A stretch of 30,606 bases of DNA from a virus, in IMG/VR virus record IMGVR_UViG_3300048694_000032, positions 1-30,606 of that record; one strand, written 5' to 3'. Below, one piece after another: positions 1 through 20,221 of this stretch. Within the stretch, counting starts at the first letter, position 1. Every line of letters starts with the position of its first letter. The translations under genes and the position numbers were made by a program. The notes below the pieces were generated by a model that was not told the origin of the DNA, did not search any database, and saw only the letters and a program-made list of their open reading frames with translations.

Positions 1-92
1 TCTGATGGTCCAATCTGTACCTGAGTAGAACGTGCTCTACTGTTTTCTTTCTTATGTAAAGCCTCAACTAATAATTCTTTTGGGTCAGTCAC
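1..92 (-). CDS. Partial hypothetical protein, cut by left edge
   Basis: The first 30 codons of a minus-strand gene are visible, beginning VTDPKELLVEALHKK, and the frame stays open to the window edge. The start is a GTG at 92, preceded by AGGAG with a 5-base spacer. It overlaps the TGA of the upstream gene as GTGA, so translation is probably coupled. I do not recognise the family from this fragment. It is the last visible member of the leftward operon led by the proteasome-like gene. Confidence 0.6.
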   Translation of the reverse strand, partial: MTDPKELLVEALHKKENSRARSTQVQIGPS

Positions 93-298
93 GCCAACTC
101 CTTCTCAATAGCCTGAATAGTTGGGCACGGATAGATATGAGCACACCAGCACATAAGTTTTTCTTTAGTAGGTACCCAATCTGGTATTGAACTTGGCTCG
201 TGTAATTCCACTACAGCGCGAAGGGATTTGGTTCCCCACATTCCTTCGGCTAAACGCTCAATTTCTTTTATTCCAAAAAGCAATTCTTCGTGTGTCAC
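89..298 (-). CDS. Small Cys-containing protein, CPTIQAIEKEL family
   Basis: This 69-residue protein ends in YPCPTIQAIEKELA and carries a CWC pair about 8 residues before that Cys, so it could bind a metal. It is a paralogue of the gene at 510-761: both begin (V/M)TH(E/D)ELL, share LRAVVELH in the middle and end with the same C-terminal motif. Small proteins with this ending recur in actinophage genomes, but I know of no established function. I chose the GTG at 298, not the upstream ATG, because it has AAGGGG six bases upstream, overlaps the preceding stop as GTGA and matches the paralogue's start. Confidence 0.75.
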   Translation of the reverse strand: MTHEELLFGIKEIERLAEGMWGTKSLRAVVELHEPSSIPDWVPTKEKLMCWCAHIYPCPTIQAIEKELA

Positions 299-513
299 TT
301 TTGTCCCCTTGCAATAGCAACGCATTTTCCAATAATAAATTCTACCAATTCTGCTTCAACATAATCTTTTACTTTTAACATAGGCTTAGACATTTCTATA
401 TCTTGTGCTATCTTCTTTCTGGTTTGAAATTCAATGACTGGTCTAATGGAGTTTTCAATAAGCCAGCAAATCTGGCAGTCGTCTCCTTCGTGTGGATGTT
501 CTATATCGGTCAT
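295..513 (-). CDS. Hypothetical protein with CxxC motif
   Basis: A 72-residue protein starting MTDIEHPHEGDDCQICWLIE. The CxxC near the N-terminus, preceded by HPHEGDD, could be half of a metal site. The remainder is rich in charged and aliphatic residues with no recognised domain. The ATG overlaps the preceding stop as ATGA and the TGA overlaps the next GTG start. It lies between two paralogous Cys-containing genes and is presumably made with them. Function unknown. Confidence 0.7.
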   Translation of the reverse strand: MTDIEHPHEGDDCQICWLIENSIRPVIEFQTRKKIAQDIEMSKPMLKVKDYVEAELVEFIIGKCVAIARGQK

Positions 514-761
514 CCCAACTCCTTCTCAATAGCCTGAATAGTTGGGCAAGGATAAGGATAGGAATCTGGTGGGTTACCTATCTCACACACTGAGCAAAAT
601 TGTAATTCTTGTTTTAGATAATTTGTATATGTGTATGGCTTATGTAATTCAACAACCGCACGAAGAGCACTCATTACTGAATTAGGACTTTTGAAAAAAT
701 GTGCCCAAGGAGAATGACCTGGTGTTGCTGTTAATAACGCTAACAATTCATCGTGTGTCAT
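510..761 (-). CDS. Small Cys-containing protein, CPTIQAIEKEL family (second copy)
   Basis: An 83-residue paralogue of the gene at 89-298. It begins MTHDELLALL, contains LRAVVELHKP, then CSVC, and ends YPYPCPTIQAIEKELG. The CxxC plus the later Cys suggests a small zinc-binding or redox fold, but the ligand set is incomplete as far as I can see. The ATG at 761 was preferred over the one at 779: it has AGGAG seven bases upstream and overlaps the previous TGA as ATGA. Role unknown. The duplication within one operon suggests gene-family expansion. Confidence 0.75.
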   Translation of the reverse strand: MTHDELLALLTATPGHSPWAHFFKSPNSVMSALRAVVELHKPYTYTNYLKQELQFCSVCEIGNPPDSYPYPCPTIQAIEKELG

Positions 762-892
762 TCGCAATCTCCTGTGCAATCGTGAGTCTCAGCAAACTTC
801 TTCTGGCAGGACTCACACGTAGCGCCATTTTCTACACACCAGTTGCAGTATCTATCTTTCTCAAAGAGAACCTTCTGGTCATCGCATCCCAT
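758..892 (-). CDS. 44-residue Cys-rich microprotein, putative zinc finger
   Basis: This short frame encodes 44 residues with seven cysteines: one at position 3, then CNWC, CESC, and two near the end (DCTGDCE). The paired CxxC motifs spaced about 10 residues apart look like a compact zinc ribbon. The ATG at 892 overlaps the TAA of the upstream gene (TAATG) and the TGA overlaps the next ATG, so it fits exactly between its neighbours. It could be a small regulator or an adaptor acting on a host protein. That is inference, and no family is recognised. Confidence 0.72.
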   Translation of the reverse strand: MGCDDQKVLFEKDRYCNWCVENGATCESCQKKFAETHDCTGDCE

Positions 893-1074
893 TAGAACGC
901 CCTATCCCATCTAGTTAAAGTGATGTTGAAGAATAATAAATTGATTTGAAATACTGTTGCTATCTTCACACCAGTATCTTCTCGAAACACTTGATAGAAG
1001 TCAATACCTAAACCAAAGTTTGACAGATGATAACGGTTAATGTAAACAGTTGACTTACTAAAATCTTTTTGCAT
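892..1074 (-). CDS. Hypothetical protein (60 residues)
   Basis: A 60-residue protein starting MQKDFSKSTVYINRYH, rich in aromatic and hydrophobic residues, ending LTRWDRAF. Its alternating hydrophobic pattern suggests a small beta fold. No Cys cluster, signal peptide or membrane segment is evident. Its ATG overlaps the TAA of the proteasome-like gene and its own TAA overlaps the next ATG, so it sits inside the coupled operon. Function unknown. Confidence 0.7.
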   Translation of the reverse strand: MQKDFSKSTVYINRYHLSNFGLGIDFYQVFREDTGVKIATVFQINLLFFNITLTRWDRAF

Positions 1075-1634
1075 TAGTACACCCTTTCCTGAGTAACCAG
1101 TTGTACAGGCTCGTGCGTATTCACGTCAAGCACCGACGCAATTTCTATGGCGCGGCGTGCCAACTTCTCTGACTTACTAGGTACCCAAGGCAGTTGCCCG
1201 TAGAGAAAGCCAAGAGCAAACTGGCCACCAGTACCCAGCCCGTAAAGTCCGTGGTCAGATTGAATAAAAGATAAATCAACAGCAATATGGAAAAGGTTGC
1301 CATTGAAAGCAACCAGATAGTCGAACCCAGCGTCTTTGTCTTTTGTGGCCTCGTATGGGTCATATCCATTCTCCTTAAACGCCGTGAGTATTGACGGCAG
1401 TATCTTCTTACCCATCCATTGAATAGGGTCAGAACCTTTATATGTCGGCGGGTTCCAGTTGTAGGCAAGGATGTCACCAGGTCTAGTATCACCGACGATA
1501 CCCAGCAGGTACTTACCAACGTGTACAATCTTTGGAGTCTTGGTTGATATAGTGCGAAGATTATCTTCGGTGATTTGTGAATCAGCAGCAAGAACTATTT
1601 TATCTTCGGTCTGTATCCCCACCAATGTCGTCAT
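1074..1634 (-). CDS. Proteasome beta-subunit / HslV-like Ntn hydrolase
   Basis: This 186-residue protein begins MTTLVGIQ and resembles the catalytic subunits of 20S proteasomes and HslV. After Met removal, Thr1-Thr2-Leu-Val-Gly-Ile aligns with the active-site start of those enzymes. The stretch IVLAADSQIT puts Asp at position 17, and TPKIVHVG supplies a Lys near position 33-34, giving the Thr/Asp/Lys set. GIVGD and LGTGGQFALGFLYG match conserved loops, the latter closer to HslV. Known family members degrade unfolded peptides in rings fed by ATPases. No alpha subunit or ATPase is seen here, so it may form a homo-oligomer or use host partners. An ATG at 1652 would add six residues (MRYTSP) and bury Thr1, so the start at 1634 is preferred although no Shine-Dalgarno precedes it. 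It is the first gene of the leftward operon. An Anbu-like or other Ntn peptidase is the main alternative. Confidence 0.85.
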   Translation of the reverse strand: MTTLVGIQTEDKIVLAADSQITEDNLRTISTKTPKIVHVGKYLLGIVGDTRPGDILAYNWNPPTYKGSDPIQWMGKKILPSILTAFKENGYDPYEATKDKDAGFDYLVAFNGNLFHIAVDLSFIQSDHGLYGLGTGGQFALGFLYGQLPWVPSKSEKLARRAIEIASVLDVNTHEPVQLVTQERVY

Positions 1635-1785
1635 AGGTGAAGTGTATCTCATCGGCGTGTCTTACGTCGGGAATGACACGCTTGTAATTAAACTACGAGC
1701 GTTAGCGAGTTTCGGTAAGAGCCGCCATATATCGGCGGCGGCTCCAGTGCTCGGCGAGGCCTCGCGTTATAGGCCGAGGCAGACT
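1635..1785. promoter_or_regulatory. Divergent intergenic region with stacked inverted repeats
   Basis: This gap lies between the leftward proteasome-like operon and the rightward zinc-ribbon/HNH pair, so it should hold divergent promoters. Inverted repeats visible: CGTGTC/GACACG at 1656-1661 and 1675-1680; GAGCCGCC/GGCGGCTC at 1719-1726 and 1737-1744; the perfect 12-base palindrome GCGAGGCCTCGC at 1754-1765; and CTCGGC/GCCGAG at 1750-1755 and 1773-1778. None is followed by a T-run in either direction, so operators or structured leader RNA are more likely than terminators. TACACT on the minus strand lies 7-12 bases before the ATG at 1634 and could be a -10 box for a leaderless transcript. Confidence 0.5.
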
Positions 1786-2016
1786 GTGTTGCTCCGTCTA
1801 CTTACCCTGCTGAAAAAGCGGGACAGTCTACCACCGATAACTGCTGCTGACTTACGTTCTCTTGGTCCAATCCACGTGTGTTCTTGTGGATGCACGGTCT
1901 TTAGTATCTTTGCTCAGTTTGAAGATTATGAAATAGCCTGGTGGGCACTTGATGCTACCTGTGCTAACTGTGGAAACTTAGTTCGTATCCCCTGCCCAGT
2001 AGACAAAGATGCATAA
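1786..2016 (+). CDS. Small zinc-ribbon protein
   Basis: A 76-residue plus-strand protein. Its C-terminal half has CSCGC followed about 30 residues later by CANC and then a final Cys (RIPCPVD), a zinc-ribbon arrangement. The middle (YEIAWWALDATC) resembles small zinc-ribbon proteins common in actinophages, whose role is unknown. An ATG-initiated frame could begin at 1471, but that would run antisense through the proteasome-like gene. The GTG at 1786 has GAGG six bases upstream and gives a normal-sized product. The 3' end overlaps the HNH gene by 8 bases. A transcription-related or nucleic-acid-binding role is possible but not shown. Confidence 0.7.
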   Translation: MLLRLLTLLKKRDSLPPITAADLRSLGPIHVCSCGCTVFSIFAQFEDYEIAWWALDATCANCGNLVRIPCPVDKDA

Positions 2017-2380
2017 ACTGTCTAACATAGATACAGATAATAGAACAGCAACGTGTTTAACGTGCGGAGATGTACTCATCCGCTATCGTCAGAAGAATAA
2101 GAATACAGGCACGATTACCTGGCGCTGTGCAAATGTAGTCAACCGCCGTCAAAATGCCCGCAAATGGCCTTATAGGCTCTTTAAGAAGTCATCCTGTCAG
2201 TGGTGTGGGTTTGTCCCTAAGTACTCAGCGCAGTTAGATGTGGACCATATCGACGGAGATAGCACAAACCACAGCGAATCTAACCTACAGACCCTTTGTG
2301 CCAACTGCCACAGGCAAAAGACTATTGATAACAAAGACCATATGAAAAGCAAAAAAGGCCCCACTCAGGTTTTATCCTGA
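2009..2380 (+). CDS. HNH endonuclease
   Basis: A 123-residue HNH nuclease. An early CLTC pair and a CQWC pair are followed by LDVDHIDGDSTNH and NLQTLCANCHRQKT, the standard HNH core with zinc cysteines and the metal-binding His/Asn residues. Such proteins are either free-standing homing nucleases or, when near terminase, packaging helpers. This one is on the opposite strand and far from the terminase in this window, so homing or a DNA-nicking role is more likely. It overlaps the zinc-ribbon gene by 8 bases. Its last 10 codons carry the hairpin that ends the opposing late operon. Confidence 0.88.
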   Translation: MHKLSNIDTDNRTATCLTCGDVLIRYRQKNKNTGTITWRCANVVNRRQNARKWPYRLFKKSSCQWCGFVPKYSAQLDVDHIDGDSTNHSESNLQTLCANCHRQKTIDNKDHMKSKKGPTQVLS

Positions 2381-5886: not shown

Positions 5887-6408
5887 TTATGATTTTGAGA
5901 TTCCGTACAGGGTTGCAGTTGAGTATTGAACGAATTTTGTTGAACCTGGAAAATATAATTTTATTGAAGTGATTGCCGATGTGCTATTCCATACACCCGC
6001 AATCATCATCATAAGCATTGCGCTTACATTTCCTTCACCAACGCTTTCAGTAGAAACTGATTTGTAATTGCTTCCAGCATAGTTCGGAATATAAATTTGT
6101 TGAGACGAAAATGTATTTGATGTAGTTGATGCTCCGTTAGAAAAACCAGAAAGAATACGGGTAATCGGGTTATCTTTATCGCTGTAAGCAGCAGAACCAT
6201 CTCCATAAATTCTTCGCCAGTTGTAATTTGAGCCAGTATCTCCATTGAATTGCATTGCGATATTCTCACCAATATCAGCAAGGTCATTTCTTGTTGATGT
6301 AAGAATGGCAAGGTCAGTGTATGTAGCAGGAATAGAAGTAAAGTCAATGCTTGCTGAACCACCACTTCCTACGGTTACAGAAGCAATTTTAGTAAATGTA
6401 TTTGCCAT
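5887..6408 (-). CDS. Beta-rich fibre/receptor-binding protein, paralogue 1
   Basis: A 173-residue protein predicted to be nearly all beta. It shares a layout with the genes at 6974-7498 and 7536-8129: an N-terminal FTKIASVTVGSGG..IDFTSIPATYTDL block, a central FNGDTGSNYNWRRIYGDG block, and a C-terminal ITSIKLYF...ATLYGI ending. The plan suggests a compact jelly-roll tip or decoration domain on the virion. Three diverged copies in a row suggest alternative receptor-binding proteins or a hetero-oligomeric tip. The ATG overlaps the TAA of the HNH gene upstream (TAATG). Confidence 0.7.
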   Translation of the reverse strand: MANTFTKIASVTVGSGGSASIDFTSIPATYTDLAILTSTRNDLADIGENIAMQFNGDTGSNYNWRRIYGDGSAAYSDKDNPITRILSGFSNGASTTSNTFSSQQIYIPNYAGSNYKSVSTESVGEGNVSAMLMMMIAGVWNSTSAITSIKLYFPGSTKFVQYSTATLYGISKS

Positions 6409-6973: not shown

Positions 6974-7498
6974 TCAGGCAAATGCCTTTATTCCGTAAAG
7001 AGTGAAAGTAGAGCCTGAAATGAAATTTCCTGTTTGTGTTTCTGAAATAGCAATACGAATCGATGTAATAGCGGAAGTGTCTCTCCATAAACCAACAGAT
7101 GCAACAGTCCAACCGCCAGAACCAGCATAGTTTGTTCTATTCAAAACGGTTTTATATGTAGTGCTATTACTGTAATTTTGAAGGTGAAAAATAGCATCGC
7201 CCAACTGACTTGCGGTTGCGTTTGCTGCTGGCAGCACACCAAATCTCATATTGTTAAAATTTGTAAGCCTGTCAGAAGATGCGGTTGAACCATCCCCACT
7301 TATCCTAGTGGAAGAATAATTAGTTCCAGAGTCACCATTAAATCTGAAACCGATTTCTCGAATAGTATTAGCACTATCAAATCTACCCTGAACAACTAAA
7401 ACCAAATCCGTATAACTTCCACTTATTGACGAAAAAGTAACGCTAGATTGTGCGCTTGAAAGAGTTGTCGTTGCAATCGGTTCGTATGTTGAAGCCAT
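6974..7498 (-). CDS. Beta-rich fibre/receptor-binding protein, paralogue 2
   Basis: A 174-residue relative of the proteins at 5887-6408 and 7536-8129. It has VTFSSISGSYTDLVLVVQGR near the N-terminus, FRFNGDSGTNYSSTRISGDG in the centre, and ITSIRIAI...FTLYGIKAFA at the end. Spacing of these blocks is nearly the same as in paralogue 1, while the residues between are very different, as expected for exposed loops that bind variable receptors. ATG at 7498. Confidence 0.7.
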   Translation of the reverse strand: MASTYEPIATTTLSSAQSSVTFSSISGSYTDLVLVVQGRFDSANTIREIGFRFNGDSGTNYSSTRISGDGSTASSDRLTNFNNMRFGVLPAANATASQLGDAIFHLQNYSNSTTYKTVLNRTNYAGSGGWTVASVGLWRDTSAITSIRIAISETQTGNFISGSTFTLYGIKAFA

Positions 7499-7535: not shown

Positions 7536-8129
7536 TCACGATTTTATTCCGTATAGTGCAAAATGTGAATACTGAGCAAGACTTTGTGTAAATCCTGAAA
7601 CAGAAAATTTTATTGTGTTAATCGCAGATGTACTCATCCATAACCCTGAATAAAGGCTCACAATTCCTTTTTCTGTTCCTGTATTGTTTGTATCGTTTCC
7701 ACCTAGTGTGCGAAATGTTTTGTATTTATTGCCGTTTGCGTAATCTAAAACATCTACAACACCTGCTCCGAACATTCCAGAGTCGTAAGTATTGCGTGGG
7801 ATGTTGGCGATTGTTGCGTATGTTTGACTTGTACTTGCTCCAGACGATGCACTTGCTCCATTTCCTTCTAAAGCGTGGCGAGCATAATTAGAACCAGTAT
7901 CAACAGAACCATTGCCAACACGAATTGCCAAAGAACCTTGGTCGCTTCCAGAAGAAGAACCACGAGCAAGCCATCTAATTTGAAGATGTGTGTAAGTGCT
8001 TGGTATGGAACTAAATGTTACTTCTGAAGTTCCTCCAGAGCCTACGGTTACTGTAGCAATAGATTCAAAAGAGTTATTTGAAATACTTCCACTAATGCTT
8101 GAAGCGATAATTCCTAGAATTGGTGTCAT
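7536..8129 (-). CDS. Beta-rich fibre/receptor-binding protein, paralogue 3
   Basis: A 197-residue protein with a distinct N-terminal stretch, MTPILGIIASSISGSIS, before the conserved block (IATVTVGSGG, then VTFSSIPSTYTHLQIRWLAR). The centre (DTGSNYARHALEGNG) and C-terminus (INTIKFSVSG...FALYGIKS) match the other two copies. The short hydrophobic N-terminal segment, which I have seen in other phage fibre proteins, may attach it to the virion. The ATG overlaps the TAA of the collagen-containing gene upstream (TAATG). Confidence 0.72.
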   Translation of the reverse strand: MTPILGIIASSISGSISNNSFESIATVTVGSGGTSEVTFSSIPSTYTHLQIRWLARGSSSGSDQGSLAIRVGNGSVDTGSNYARHALEGNGASASSGASTSQTYATIANIPRNTYDSGMFGAGVVDVLDYANGNKYKTFRTLGGNDTNNTGTEKGIVSLYSGLWMSTSAINTIKFSVSGFTQSLAQYSHFALYGIKS

Positions 8130-11666: not shown

Positions 11667-13533
<1,867 letters not shown>

Positions 13534-18518: not shown

Positions 18519-19376
18519 TTACCCCGCAAGTCCAAAGTTACGTTTAACCGTTAGCAACACATCTGCTACTTCTTTGCGTGCCTTATCTGTATATTGCCAT
18601 TGGTCATCTTTTCTGAGCAGTCTTCGCAATTCAGAAAGATTCATATTTTTACTTAAAGCATCTTGTACATATTTGTTTGTTACGTCAATAGTCGAATATG
18701 GAATTTCAAGTTCATCAGCGATAGTTGATTGATAAGGTCCGATGACATCCATTAAGTCATATCCTTGGTCAATCATATTGCGAACGTTTTCTGGCATAGC
18801 AGTCTTTGCATAATTGCGAATCTTTTGTTCATAATTGTTAAGTGACTCACCTGTTGCTAACTCATCCATAGCCTGGTCAATCGTGTCAAACCCAAGAACT
18901 TTAGCGATTGAGTTTTCTGCCACACCGTTACGTTTTGCCACCTTAAGTAATGTATTGTAATTGTCCTGAAATGTCCCGCCAGTTTTTCCAGGTTCAAACG
19001 TAGTCCCTTTAATAAGTTCATCTTTAATGGTTGACTCTGGAATGCCACGTAAGTAATAGTCATCAAGTTGGTTTTCAGTAAACTGTACGCCTGCTTGCTT
19101 AAGCAATTTACGTAAATTTACTTTCCAGTCTTCTCGTGACTGCTGAAATACGTCAGAGTTTTCGAGTTGAGAAAGGTACCGAGTTTGTGCTGTGCCATTT
19201 AACTGTCCAAATAAAGACTTAGTTTTAAATATTTCTTTAGCCTTAATTGGGTCTTTATCAAATAAATCAAATACTTCCTGTAAGTATGGGTCTGCTTTTG
19301 TTCCATACTTTGGGTCAAGCAATAGAGCCGATACAAGACCAAGTTTATCTTGTATTGTAGAGGTGCCGTCTACCAC
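18519..19376 (-). CDS. Putative internal virion protein (285 residues)
   Basis: A helical, charged protein starting (V)VDGTSTIQDKLGLVSALL and ending EVADVLLTVKRNFGLAG. Repeated Asp-Asn-Tyr and Leu-rich helices are visible, with no catalytic motif. I chose GTG 19376 over the ATG at 19406: it has GGAGG six bases upstream and overlaps the preceding TAG (TAGTG), while the ATG lies 30 bases inside the previous gene. By position it belongs with the genes at 17137, 19376 and 20221 as a probable core or ejection component. Confidence 0.6.
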   Translation of the reverse strand: MVDGTSTIQDKLGLVSALLLDPKYGTKADPYLQEVFDLFDKDPIKAKEIFKTKSLFGQLNGTAQTRYLSQLENSDVFQQSREDWKVNLRKLLKQAGVQFTENQLDDYYLRGIPESTIKDELIKGTTFEPGKTGGTFQDNYNTLLKVAKRNGVAENSIAKVLGFDTIDQAMDELATGESLNNYEQKIRNYAKTAMPENVRNMIDQGYDLMDVIGPYQSTIADELEIPYSTIDVTNKYVQDALSKNMNLSELRRLLRKDDQWQYTDKARKEVADVLLTVKRNFGLAG

Positions 19377-20221
19377 TATTGACCTCCAATTTGCTTCATT
19401 ATCCAACTGCCAAAATCTGATTCACGTTTACGTTGTAGGTCGTCAGTTAATTCAGGCACTGCTTGAATTGCTGCCCCCACCTTACTTAAAGCCTTTTCTT
19501 CGCTATATCCTGGAGTTGATGTAGTAACGTTTTCAAGTTTTCCAGTCTGTGGATTCTTTACTTTTTTGGTTACGGTTACAGTTCCAGCATCCATCATACT
19601 TTGAATAGCGCCAGCAAGGTCGCTGTACCAAGGTTGCTTTTTATCATCTTCAGAAAGGCTTCTTCCTAAAATTGATTGTGCACCTTTATTGATAACTGCG
19701 TCTCGTTGCTCTGGGGTATATTGATATACTTGACGGCTTGGAAGTTTATCTGCAGATGCTGATATTTTAGCGGCTGCGCTGTTGCGAAGCATATCCTCAA
19801 CACTGAGAGTTTTTACCATTGGGTCTGTTGAAGCACTCATTGCTAATGCATAGCGAGATACCCATTTACCAAGAGTGGTTGGGTCTTGAATGTTTTTACC
19901 CGAAGCCCGCTTTACTAAATTTTGTAGCGCAGCATAAGCCTTTTTATTTGTTACAGCAAGTGAAGTAATATATGACTCATATTTAATTGGAGGTAGATTA
20001 GTTTCTACACCGAAACCAAAATCAACGCCAGAAGAATTACCTCCAGTGGAACCGCTTGTATCAAACGTCGTGCTGAATCCACCAGGCGATGGTTTTACAT
20101 ATGTTGATTGAGGGTCTGATTGATAAACTTTTTTTGCTTCAGCGGATACCTGCTCGGAGTTCCACTCAGGGTGAGCAGAACGAACTTCGTTCTCGTACTG
20201 CTTGTACGTCTTATTACCCAT
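19376..20221 (-). CDS. Putative internal virion protein (281 residues)
   Basis: A protein starting MGNKTYKQYENEVRSAHPEW. The first ~55 residues are a helix with a Gln/Lys pattern, then a Ser/Gly/Thr linker (~60-80), then helical segments (KKAYAALQNLVKRASGKNIQ, QYTPEQRDAVINKGAQSILG) and a C-terminal PELTDDLQRKRESDFGSW. ATG 20221 overlaps the TAA of the giant gene (TAATG). No known family recognised. Composition and context suggest an internal or ejected virion protein. Confidence 0.6.
   Translation of the reverse strand: MGNKTYKQYENEVRSAHPEWNSEQVSAEAKKVYQSDPQSTYVKPSPGGFSTTFDTSGSTGGNSSGVDFGFGVETNLPPIKYESYITSLAVTNKKAYAALQNLVKRASGKNIQDPTTLGKWVSRYALAMSASTDPMVKTLSVEDMLRNSAAAKISASADKLPSRQVYQYTPEQRDAVINKGAQSILGRSLSEDDKKQPWYSDLAGAIQSMMDAGTVTVTKKVKNPQTGKLENVTTSTPGYSEEKALSKVGAAIQAVPELTDDLQRKRESDFGSWIMKQIGGQ

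Follow-up and report, generated by a model that had tools for sequence, protein, structure and literature searches.

A large and very common lineage of freshwater actinophages carries, as a core gene in one copy, a proteasome-fold Ntn hydrolase, which occupies one of two fixed genomic places. The gene was found in the window, i.e., the whole 30,606-nucleotide stretch of viral DNA analyzed here, and its relatives fall into two main clades, one around the window protein (window clade) and one around the protein of a cultured Planktophila phage (F5 clade). Our preferred reading, to which we assign a probability of roughly 55%, is that the protein forms an autonomous, BPH-like ring peptidase chamber in the infected cell, with no dedicated phage ATPase. 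Phage proteasome homologs, namely PPH and AAH, have already been described by Fuchs, Alva & Lupas in 2021 (PMC8665760), and what is new here is the context: a core gene, fixed places, and cultured carriers. Such homologs have been cataloged, and a fixed place in an early operon, a private operator, and a small coupled partner gene now offer concrete handles on their function.

RESULTS AND DISCUSSION

Sequence, fold, and active site of the peptidase

The peptidase is the only PF00227 protein of the window record (Table 1). It scores 25.5 bits against Pfam PF00227 (Proteasome; cut-off, 22.4), over residues 2-44 only, and matches the full-length profile of PHROG 1040, "peptidase HslV family," over residues 1-183 (79.9 bits, E 4.6e-22), while the cut-offs of the HslV equivalogs NF003964 (31.2 versus 137 bits) and TIGR03692 (29.6 versus 157.75 bits) were not reached. 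Although another in-frame ATG lies upstream, at 1652, in nearly all relatives the first codon is a start codon with Thr-Thr directly after it (this holds for 83 of the 84 distinct proteins of the window clade and for 64 of 64 in the F5 clade), so that we consider the start at 1634 correct and a propeptide absent. The start codons, ATG, GTG, or rarely ATT, nearly always abut Thr1, and removal of the initiator methionine alone would thus expose the nucleophile.

Table 1. Features at the start of the window
Feature	Position	Strand	Description
Cas4-like exonuclease, first 30 codons	3..92	minus	truncated by contig end; 82% identical to L094 gene
three small ORFs (89, 72, 78 aa)	89..779	minus	same operon as peptidase
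w44	758..892	minus	44-aa Cys-rich ORF after w60; weak zinc-finger matches only, below cut-off
w60	892..1074	minus	60 aa, directly behind peptidase, one-base overlap (TAATG)
peptidase gene	1074..1634	minus (1634 -> 1074)	186 aa, proteasome-fold Ntn hydrolase, PHROG 1040
putative leaderless promoter	1635..1652	minus	-10 TACACT, ends 6 nt before ATG
operator-like palindrome	1657..1679	minus	GTGTC-N13-GACAC, ends 22 nt before start codon
zn117	1663..2016	plus	small divergent gene, CxC / CxxC motifs, conserved part ~residues 54-116

The AlphaFold2 monomer model, built with 35 relatives as input, is of high confidence (pLDDT 91.4, pTM 0.88) and contains the Ntn fold, with helices at residues 50-59, 70-88, 137-146, and 148-169, including helix H2. 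A Foldseek search of the PDB returned BPH of Thiobacillus as the top match (1.9e-11) and HslV next, and VIA-align gave Z scores of 20.1 for BPH (2.6 A over 174 residues, 24% identity), 19.3 for HslV, 19.2 for yeast beta5, and ~19 for the Mycobacterium tuberculosis beta subunit, with residue 2 of the model superposed on Thr1 of the solved chains. The profile matches and the model together bear out the preliminary description, made from the letters alone, of a phage-borne Ntn peptidase resembling proteasome beta subunits and HslV. The residues that it listed (a Thr after the Met, Asp17, a Lys near 33-34, and the GIVGD and GTGGQFALG loops) are likewise all present: counted after Met removal, the protein has Thr1, Asp17, Lys34 (equivalent to Lys33, with a one-residue insertion), GIVGD with Gly47, and GLGTGGQFALG. 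In alignments, Thr1, Asp17, the Lys33 equivalent, Gly47, and the [ST]GG loop are common to the actinophage relatives and to isolated phages of other hosts. A census of 148 distinct proteins from the two actinophage clades found Asp17 kept in 83/84 window-clade and 64/64 F5-clade proteins and Lys33 in 82/84 and 64/64, one window-clade exception being apparently misread at its start. Between window-clade members, dN/dS is 0.08-0.12; the gene is under purifying selection with its catalytic residues kept, and its product is apparently an active enzyme.

Relation to known proteasome homologs

Profile comparisons placed the window clade next to the F5 protein (99.8% probability), the homolog of the Actinomycetia phage DSL-LC01 (99.7%), a phage/plasmid group (99.6%), and BPH-like sequences (99.2%), and far from HslV (81%) and actinobacterial PrcB (14%). 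With PHROG 1040, PPH, and AAH the window peptidase shares the proteasome fold, the Thr1/Asp17/Lys33/Gly47 set, the lack of a propeptide, carriage by Caudoviricetes, and the lack of a co-occurring AAA+ partner. Membership in PPH can be ruled out, as PPH proteins are ~140 aa long and without helix H2, whereas the window peptidase has 186 aa and contains it. The 2021 survey listed no Actinobacteria-specific phage with AAH (PMC8665760), whereas we find a homolog, possibly of the AAH type, in hundreds of actinophage contigs and in cultured actinophages. Homologs occur in the Planktophila phages LanE43AprE7/F5, where we found them here, and, already annotated, in DSL-LC01, in the Microbacterium phages WaterT and Pumpernickel, and in the Arthrobacter phage Hum25; these actinophage proteins differ from the window peptidase in being only 25-37% identical to it and in having other neighbors, mostly in accessory or early regions. 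Elsewhere, g89 of the Citromicrobium phage RXM is called "BPH" (PMC8953757), and in the Aeromonas phage 2L372X (L416 601-1152 and beyond) the neighboring genes 2L372X_210 and _211 are both labeled "peptidase HslV family" and might encode the two subunits of one assembly.

Of the cellular enzymes, BPH (5ovs, 5ovt, 5ovu) is the closest in kind: it is the best structural match, it too lacks a dedicated unfoldase, and it has a similarly extended, acidic pore loop. In the model, the H2-S7 "pore loop" (~residues 89-103, DPYEATKDKDAG) is extended, rich in acidic residues, and BPH-like by eye, whereas that of HslV is short. BPH differs in belonging to cellular, stress-linked operons, and in our tree the phage proteins group on a branch separate from that of BPH-like sequences. 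HslV has the same fold (Z ~19), catalytic residues, and GSGG-type loop but also an HslU partner and a basic cluster in its short pore loop, neither of which is seen for the window peptidase. PrcB, the bacterial 20S beta subunit, has the same fold (Z 18-19) and would be expected to share the Thr1 mechanism, but its propeptide and alpha subunit are both absent here and the profile similarity is very low. Anbu is not among the structural matches listed, which excludes nothing.

A proposed autonomous chamber without a phage ATPase

Neither an alpha subunit nor an HslU/Clp-type ATPase was found in the window, as the preliminary description had stated, or in 25 related and comparison phage genomes. 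The AAA_2 profile (HslU/ClpX type) gave no match over its cut-off in 25 phage records, whereas all 14 of 14 control genomes were positive. PF00004 matches in the F5 clade were considered as partner ATPases and rejected, these proteins being DnaB_C/AAA_25-like. A lack of AAA+ partners has likewise been reported for group I homologs and for BPH (PMC8665760, PMC5777263), the latter being a double heptamer that has no known ATPase partner. Against our reading, assays of BPH on model substrates did not reveal clear activity, and pull-downs yielded no partner (PMC5777263). A host ATPase of the Clp/ARC/Mpa type could nevertheless serve the phage peptidase.

We infer the peptidase activity, ring assembly, expression timing, and substrates of the phage enzyme as follows. 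With its proteasome fold, the protein would work as a threonine peptidase, its Thr1 exposed by removal of the start Met, and would self-assemble into a closed ring chamber like those of BPH and HslV. Its targets may be small, unfolded, or loosely folded polypeptides, be they dismantled host proteins, chains that are damaged or still being made, or a small set of particular substrates. In the window clade, where the gene opens the early/replication operon and is coupled to w60, transcription would start at a leaderless promoter of its own that is under operator control, and in the F5 clade the enzyme would be produced together with the portal and head genes.

The preliminary description had supposed that the protein might join host rings or poison them. 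Some actinobacteria do own proteasomes, a PF00227 protein being present in 178 of 396 sampled actinobacterial genomes, which speaks for a subunit that enters or blocks the proteasome or HslV rings of the host and thereby redirects or poisons its proteolysis. That fraction is fewer than half, however. Moreover, the phage protein is far nearer to phage and BPH-like sequences than to PrcB (99% versus 14%), it has no alpha partner, and its catalytic residues are kept under purifying selection, a constraint that is not expected for a poison subunit. The proposal thus fared badly, and we hold it to be very improbable. In a search for a proteasome of 'Ca. Nanopelagicales', two candidate orders (five and three species) had no PF00227 protein, and the literature searched held no paper linking the two.

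A core gene of freshwater actinophages

Relatives of the window clade are encoded on at least 587 viral contigs, and an F5-type relative is encoded on 199. The window terminase is 46% identical to those of the Planktophila phages LanE43AprE7/F5 and 44% identical to those of Streptomyces phages such as WRightOn, and from this similarity we consider that the window phage probably infects a freshwater actinobacterium. Two phages have been isolated on 'Ca. Planktophila' LanE-43 (PMC10202952), and LanE43AprE7/F5 (OX376640/1) carry homologs of the peptidase. The records OX376640 and OX376641 have no annotation and bear the organism name "Caudovirales sp. ct2KA10," so that a search by name misses them.

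To count carriers independently of the peptidase, contigs were picked by their terminase, and among the 26 records of at least 30 kb, 24 hold exactly one copy. One of the two without a copy (L213/G001) has a terminase 100% identical to that of the window but is a fragment that, by its coordinates, should end short of the locus. The other (L302/G012) has an F5-type head module where an 84-aa gene comes straight after the portal gene (L302 3027-5146), leaving the peptidase slot cleanly empty; no peptidase occurs in its 9.5-kb stretch past the tail and lysis genes either, this contig holding part of a genome. In cellular genome contigs, a profile search with the window-clade alignment returned no relative and no close cellular donor, and a second, F5-based scan returned seven remote homologs. 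The Streptomyces homologs L371/L372 are 30% identical to the F5 protein and lie in a neighboring branch of the tree.

Two fixed genomic places

In the window clade, the divergent gene zn117 lies immediately upstream of the peptidase in each of the 114 loci that extend to this side, and w60 lies downstream in 109 loci, so that the gene does keep the same place in related phages, a point that the preliminary description had left to be checked. The gene zn117 itself adjoins the tail and lysis genes; as its conservation covers only a part of the reading frame, its true start may be near 1789. Behind zn117, on the strand opposite the peptidase and between the latter and the lysis genes, the window carries an HNH endonuclease gene (2009-2380, plus strand), which is probably a mobile insertion, since only some relatives have it. 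The F5 clade has a different arrangement: in all of its 80 loci, the peptidase comes directly after the portal gene and has the same direction. When loci were sorted by terminase, the peptidase followed the portal gene in 0 of 32 loci of the window's clade and in 45 of 46 F5-clade loci. The window and F5 peptidase clades are each 100% supported in the tree, but their sisterhood is weak (43/83), and both one relocation and two separate acquisitions are possible.

The position in the F5 clade is more in keeping with late action than with early action and counts against our main reading. It raises the alternative of a protease of capsid or virion morphogenesis, a counterpart of prohead proteases that would use an Ntn threonine active site to digest the scaffold or to process proteins of the head: the place behind the portal gene is the usual slot of prohead proteases, the gene there is co-directional and preceded by a Shine-Dalgarno site, a separate scaffold gene is present, and no other prohead protease family was recognized among the head-module proteins of the window that were scanned. 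The Shine-Dalgarno-like motif behind the portal gene reads AGGGGAC, and 29 of 48 sites fit the strict motifs scored. On the other hand, the window-clade gene is never behind the portal gene and heads the early operon instead, the head module is the same in the related Streptomyces phage WRightOn, which has no peptidase, the Microbacterium phage WaterT has the peptidase plus a separate annotated capsid maturation protease, and the F5-type contig G012 has the module with its slot empty. We set aside one universal prohead protease, given the window clade, WRightOn, and WaterT; such a function is unlikely, while a head role may exist in the portal-linked clade, as its gene position hints. As an account of the peptidase in general, we regard a morphogenesis protease as quite doubtful. 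Alternatively, with a proteasome-type chamber as an obligatory part of the phage program, the enzyme may have switched jobs or timings, from an early, operator-controlled takeover peptidase to a portal-linked enzyme of the head operon (or the reverse), the portal-linked form possibly representing a new catalytic class, Ntn threonine, among proteases of capsid maturation or scaffold clearing; we consider this scenario unlikely. The two contrasting positions provide a test of early host takeover versus virion assembly, for which cultured 'Ca. Planktophila' phages carrying the gene exist.

Expression signals in the window clade

Leaderless actinobacterial promoters have a TANNNT hexamer ~6 nt before the start codon. 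This layout recurs upstream of the window-clade peptidase genes: of 83 distinct upstream regions, 43 have a TANNNT that ends exactly 6 nt ahead of the start codon, where shuffled sequences would give 1.3, and 78 have one at a distance of 5-9 nt. Against an expectation of 0.08, 71 of these 83 regions hold a palindrome GTGTC-N5-16-GACAC, which overlies the presumed -35 region and mostly ends 24-28 nt short of the start codon; it occurs once in the window and is almost private to the peptidase promoter across the lineage. A phage regulator such as zn117, or a phage sigma factor, would be candidates for its binding. Together with the operon context, these signals point to early expression in the window clade.

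For one clade, the dedicated operator and the early promoter make regulated action likely and argue against a general stress or amino-acid-recycling peptidase that raises virion yield in nutrient-poor hosts rather than being a strict takeover factor. Such an enzyme would suit a core gene that is kept whatever its operon context and is widespread in freshwater viral contigs, and bacterial BPH operons are stress-linked (PMC5777263), yet we give this explanation little credence.

The downstream operon and w60

In longer relatives, the peptidase is followed, in order, by w60, a Cas4-like exonuclease, a gp49-like protein, WhiB, a DnaB-like ATPase, a PD-(D/E)XK nuclease, primase pieces, and a sigma-70 region 4 protein, to which some add a cytosine methylase (L094). 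The peptidase homolog of DSL-LC01 likewise adjoins a WhiB gene. The view of the preliminary description that the gene leads a putative host-takeover operon is thus in keeping with its place as the first gene of what is probably an early/replication operon. In the window, four small ORFs separate w60 from the Cas4-like gene, of which the 89-aa and 78-aa ORFs are alike and both match phrog_23623. Near the early region, L094 also encodes a glutamine amidotransferase-like protein (GATase_6, class II Ntn-type; 19005-19889, minus strand), a second Ntn-type enzyme in the lineage.

The coupling of w60 to the peptidase by an overlap of -1 or -4 nt is found in 103 of 110 loci. Its product belongs to a well-conserved protein family with the pattern NW..GIDYY...QINLLFFNITITRW, for which we found no PHROG match in 29 members, none in the phage collection, and no known family; the structure model, of low confidence, is all-beta and has no significant structural match. 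We conclude that w60 represents a new, uncharacterized, and probably all-beta family. Of the coupled, small Cys-rich genes announced in the preliminary description, the coupling holds for w60, which contains no Cys, and the richness in Cys holds for w44; the suggestion that they are adaptors found no support.

So strict a coupling could also mean that the peptidase processes or ligates just one or a few substrates, in a connectase-like or signaling role, possibly with w60 among them. One of the proteasome-like homologs, connectase, is a ligase that acts as a monomer (PMC8665760), and BPH is suspected to be substrate-specific (PMC5777263). However, the F5 clade and the L050/G009 branch have the peptidase and no w60 match, and the model, its strand order read by eye, lacks an S3/S4 insertion of the connectase type; we keep this idea in view as a tentative and rather unlikely one, and we continue to favor the autonomous chamber.

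Outside this locus, the window encodes a long collagen-like GPTG repeat protein of 505 aa (11667-13184, minus strand) and DUF-like paralogous beta proteins (7536-8129, 6974-7498, and 5887-6408), all of them probably tail or fiber associated.
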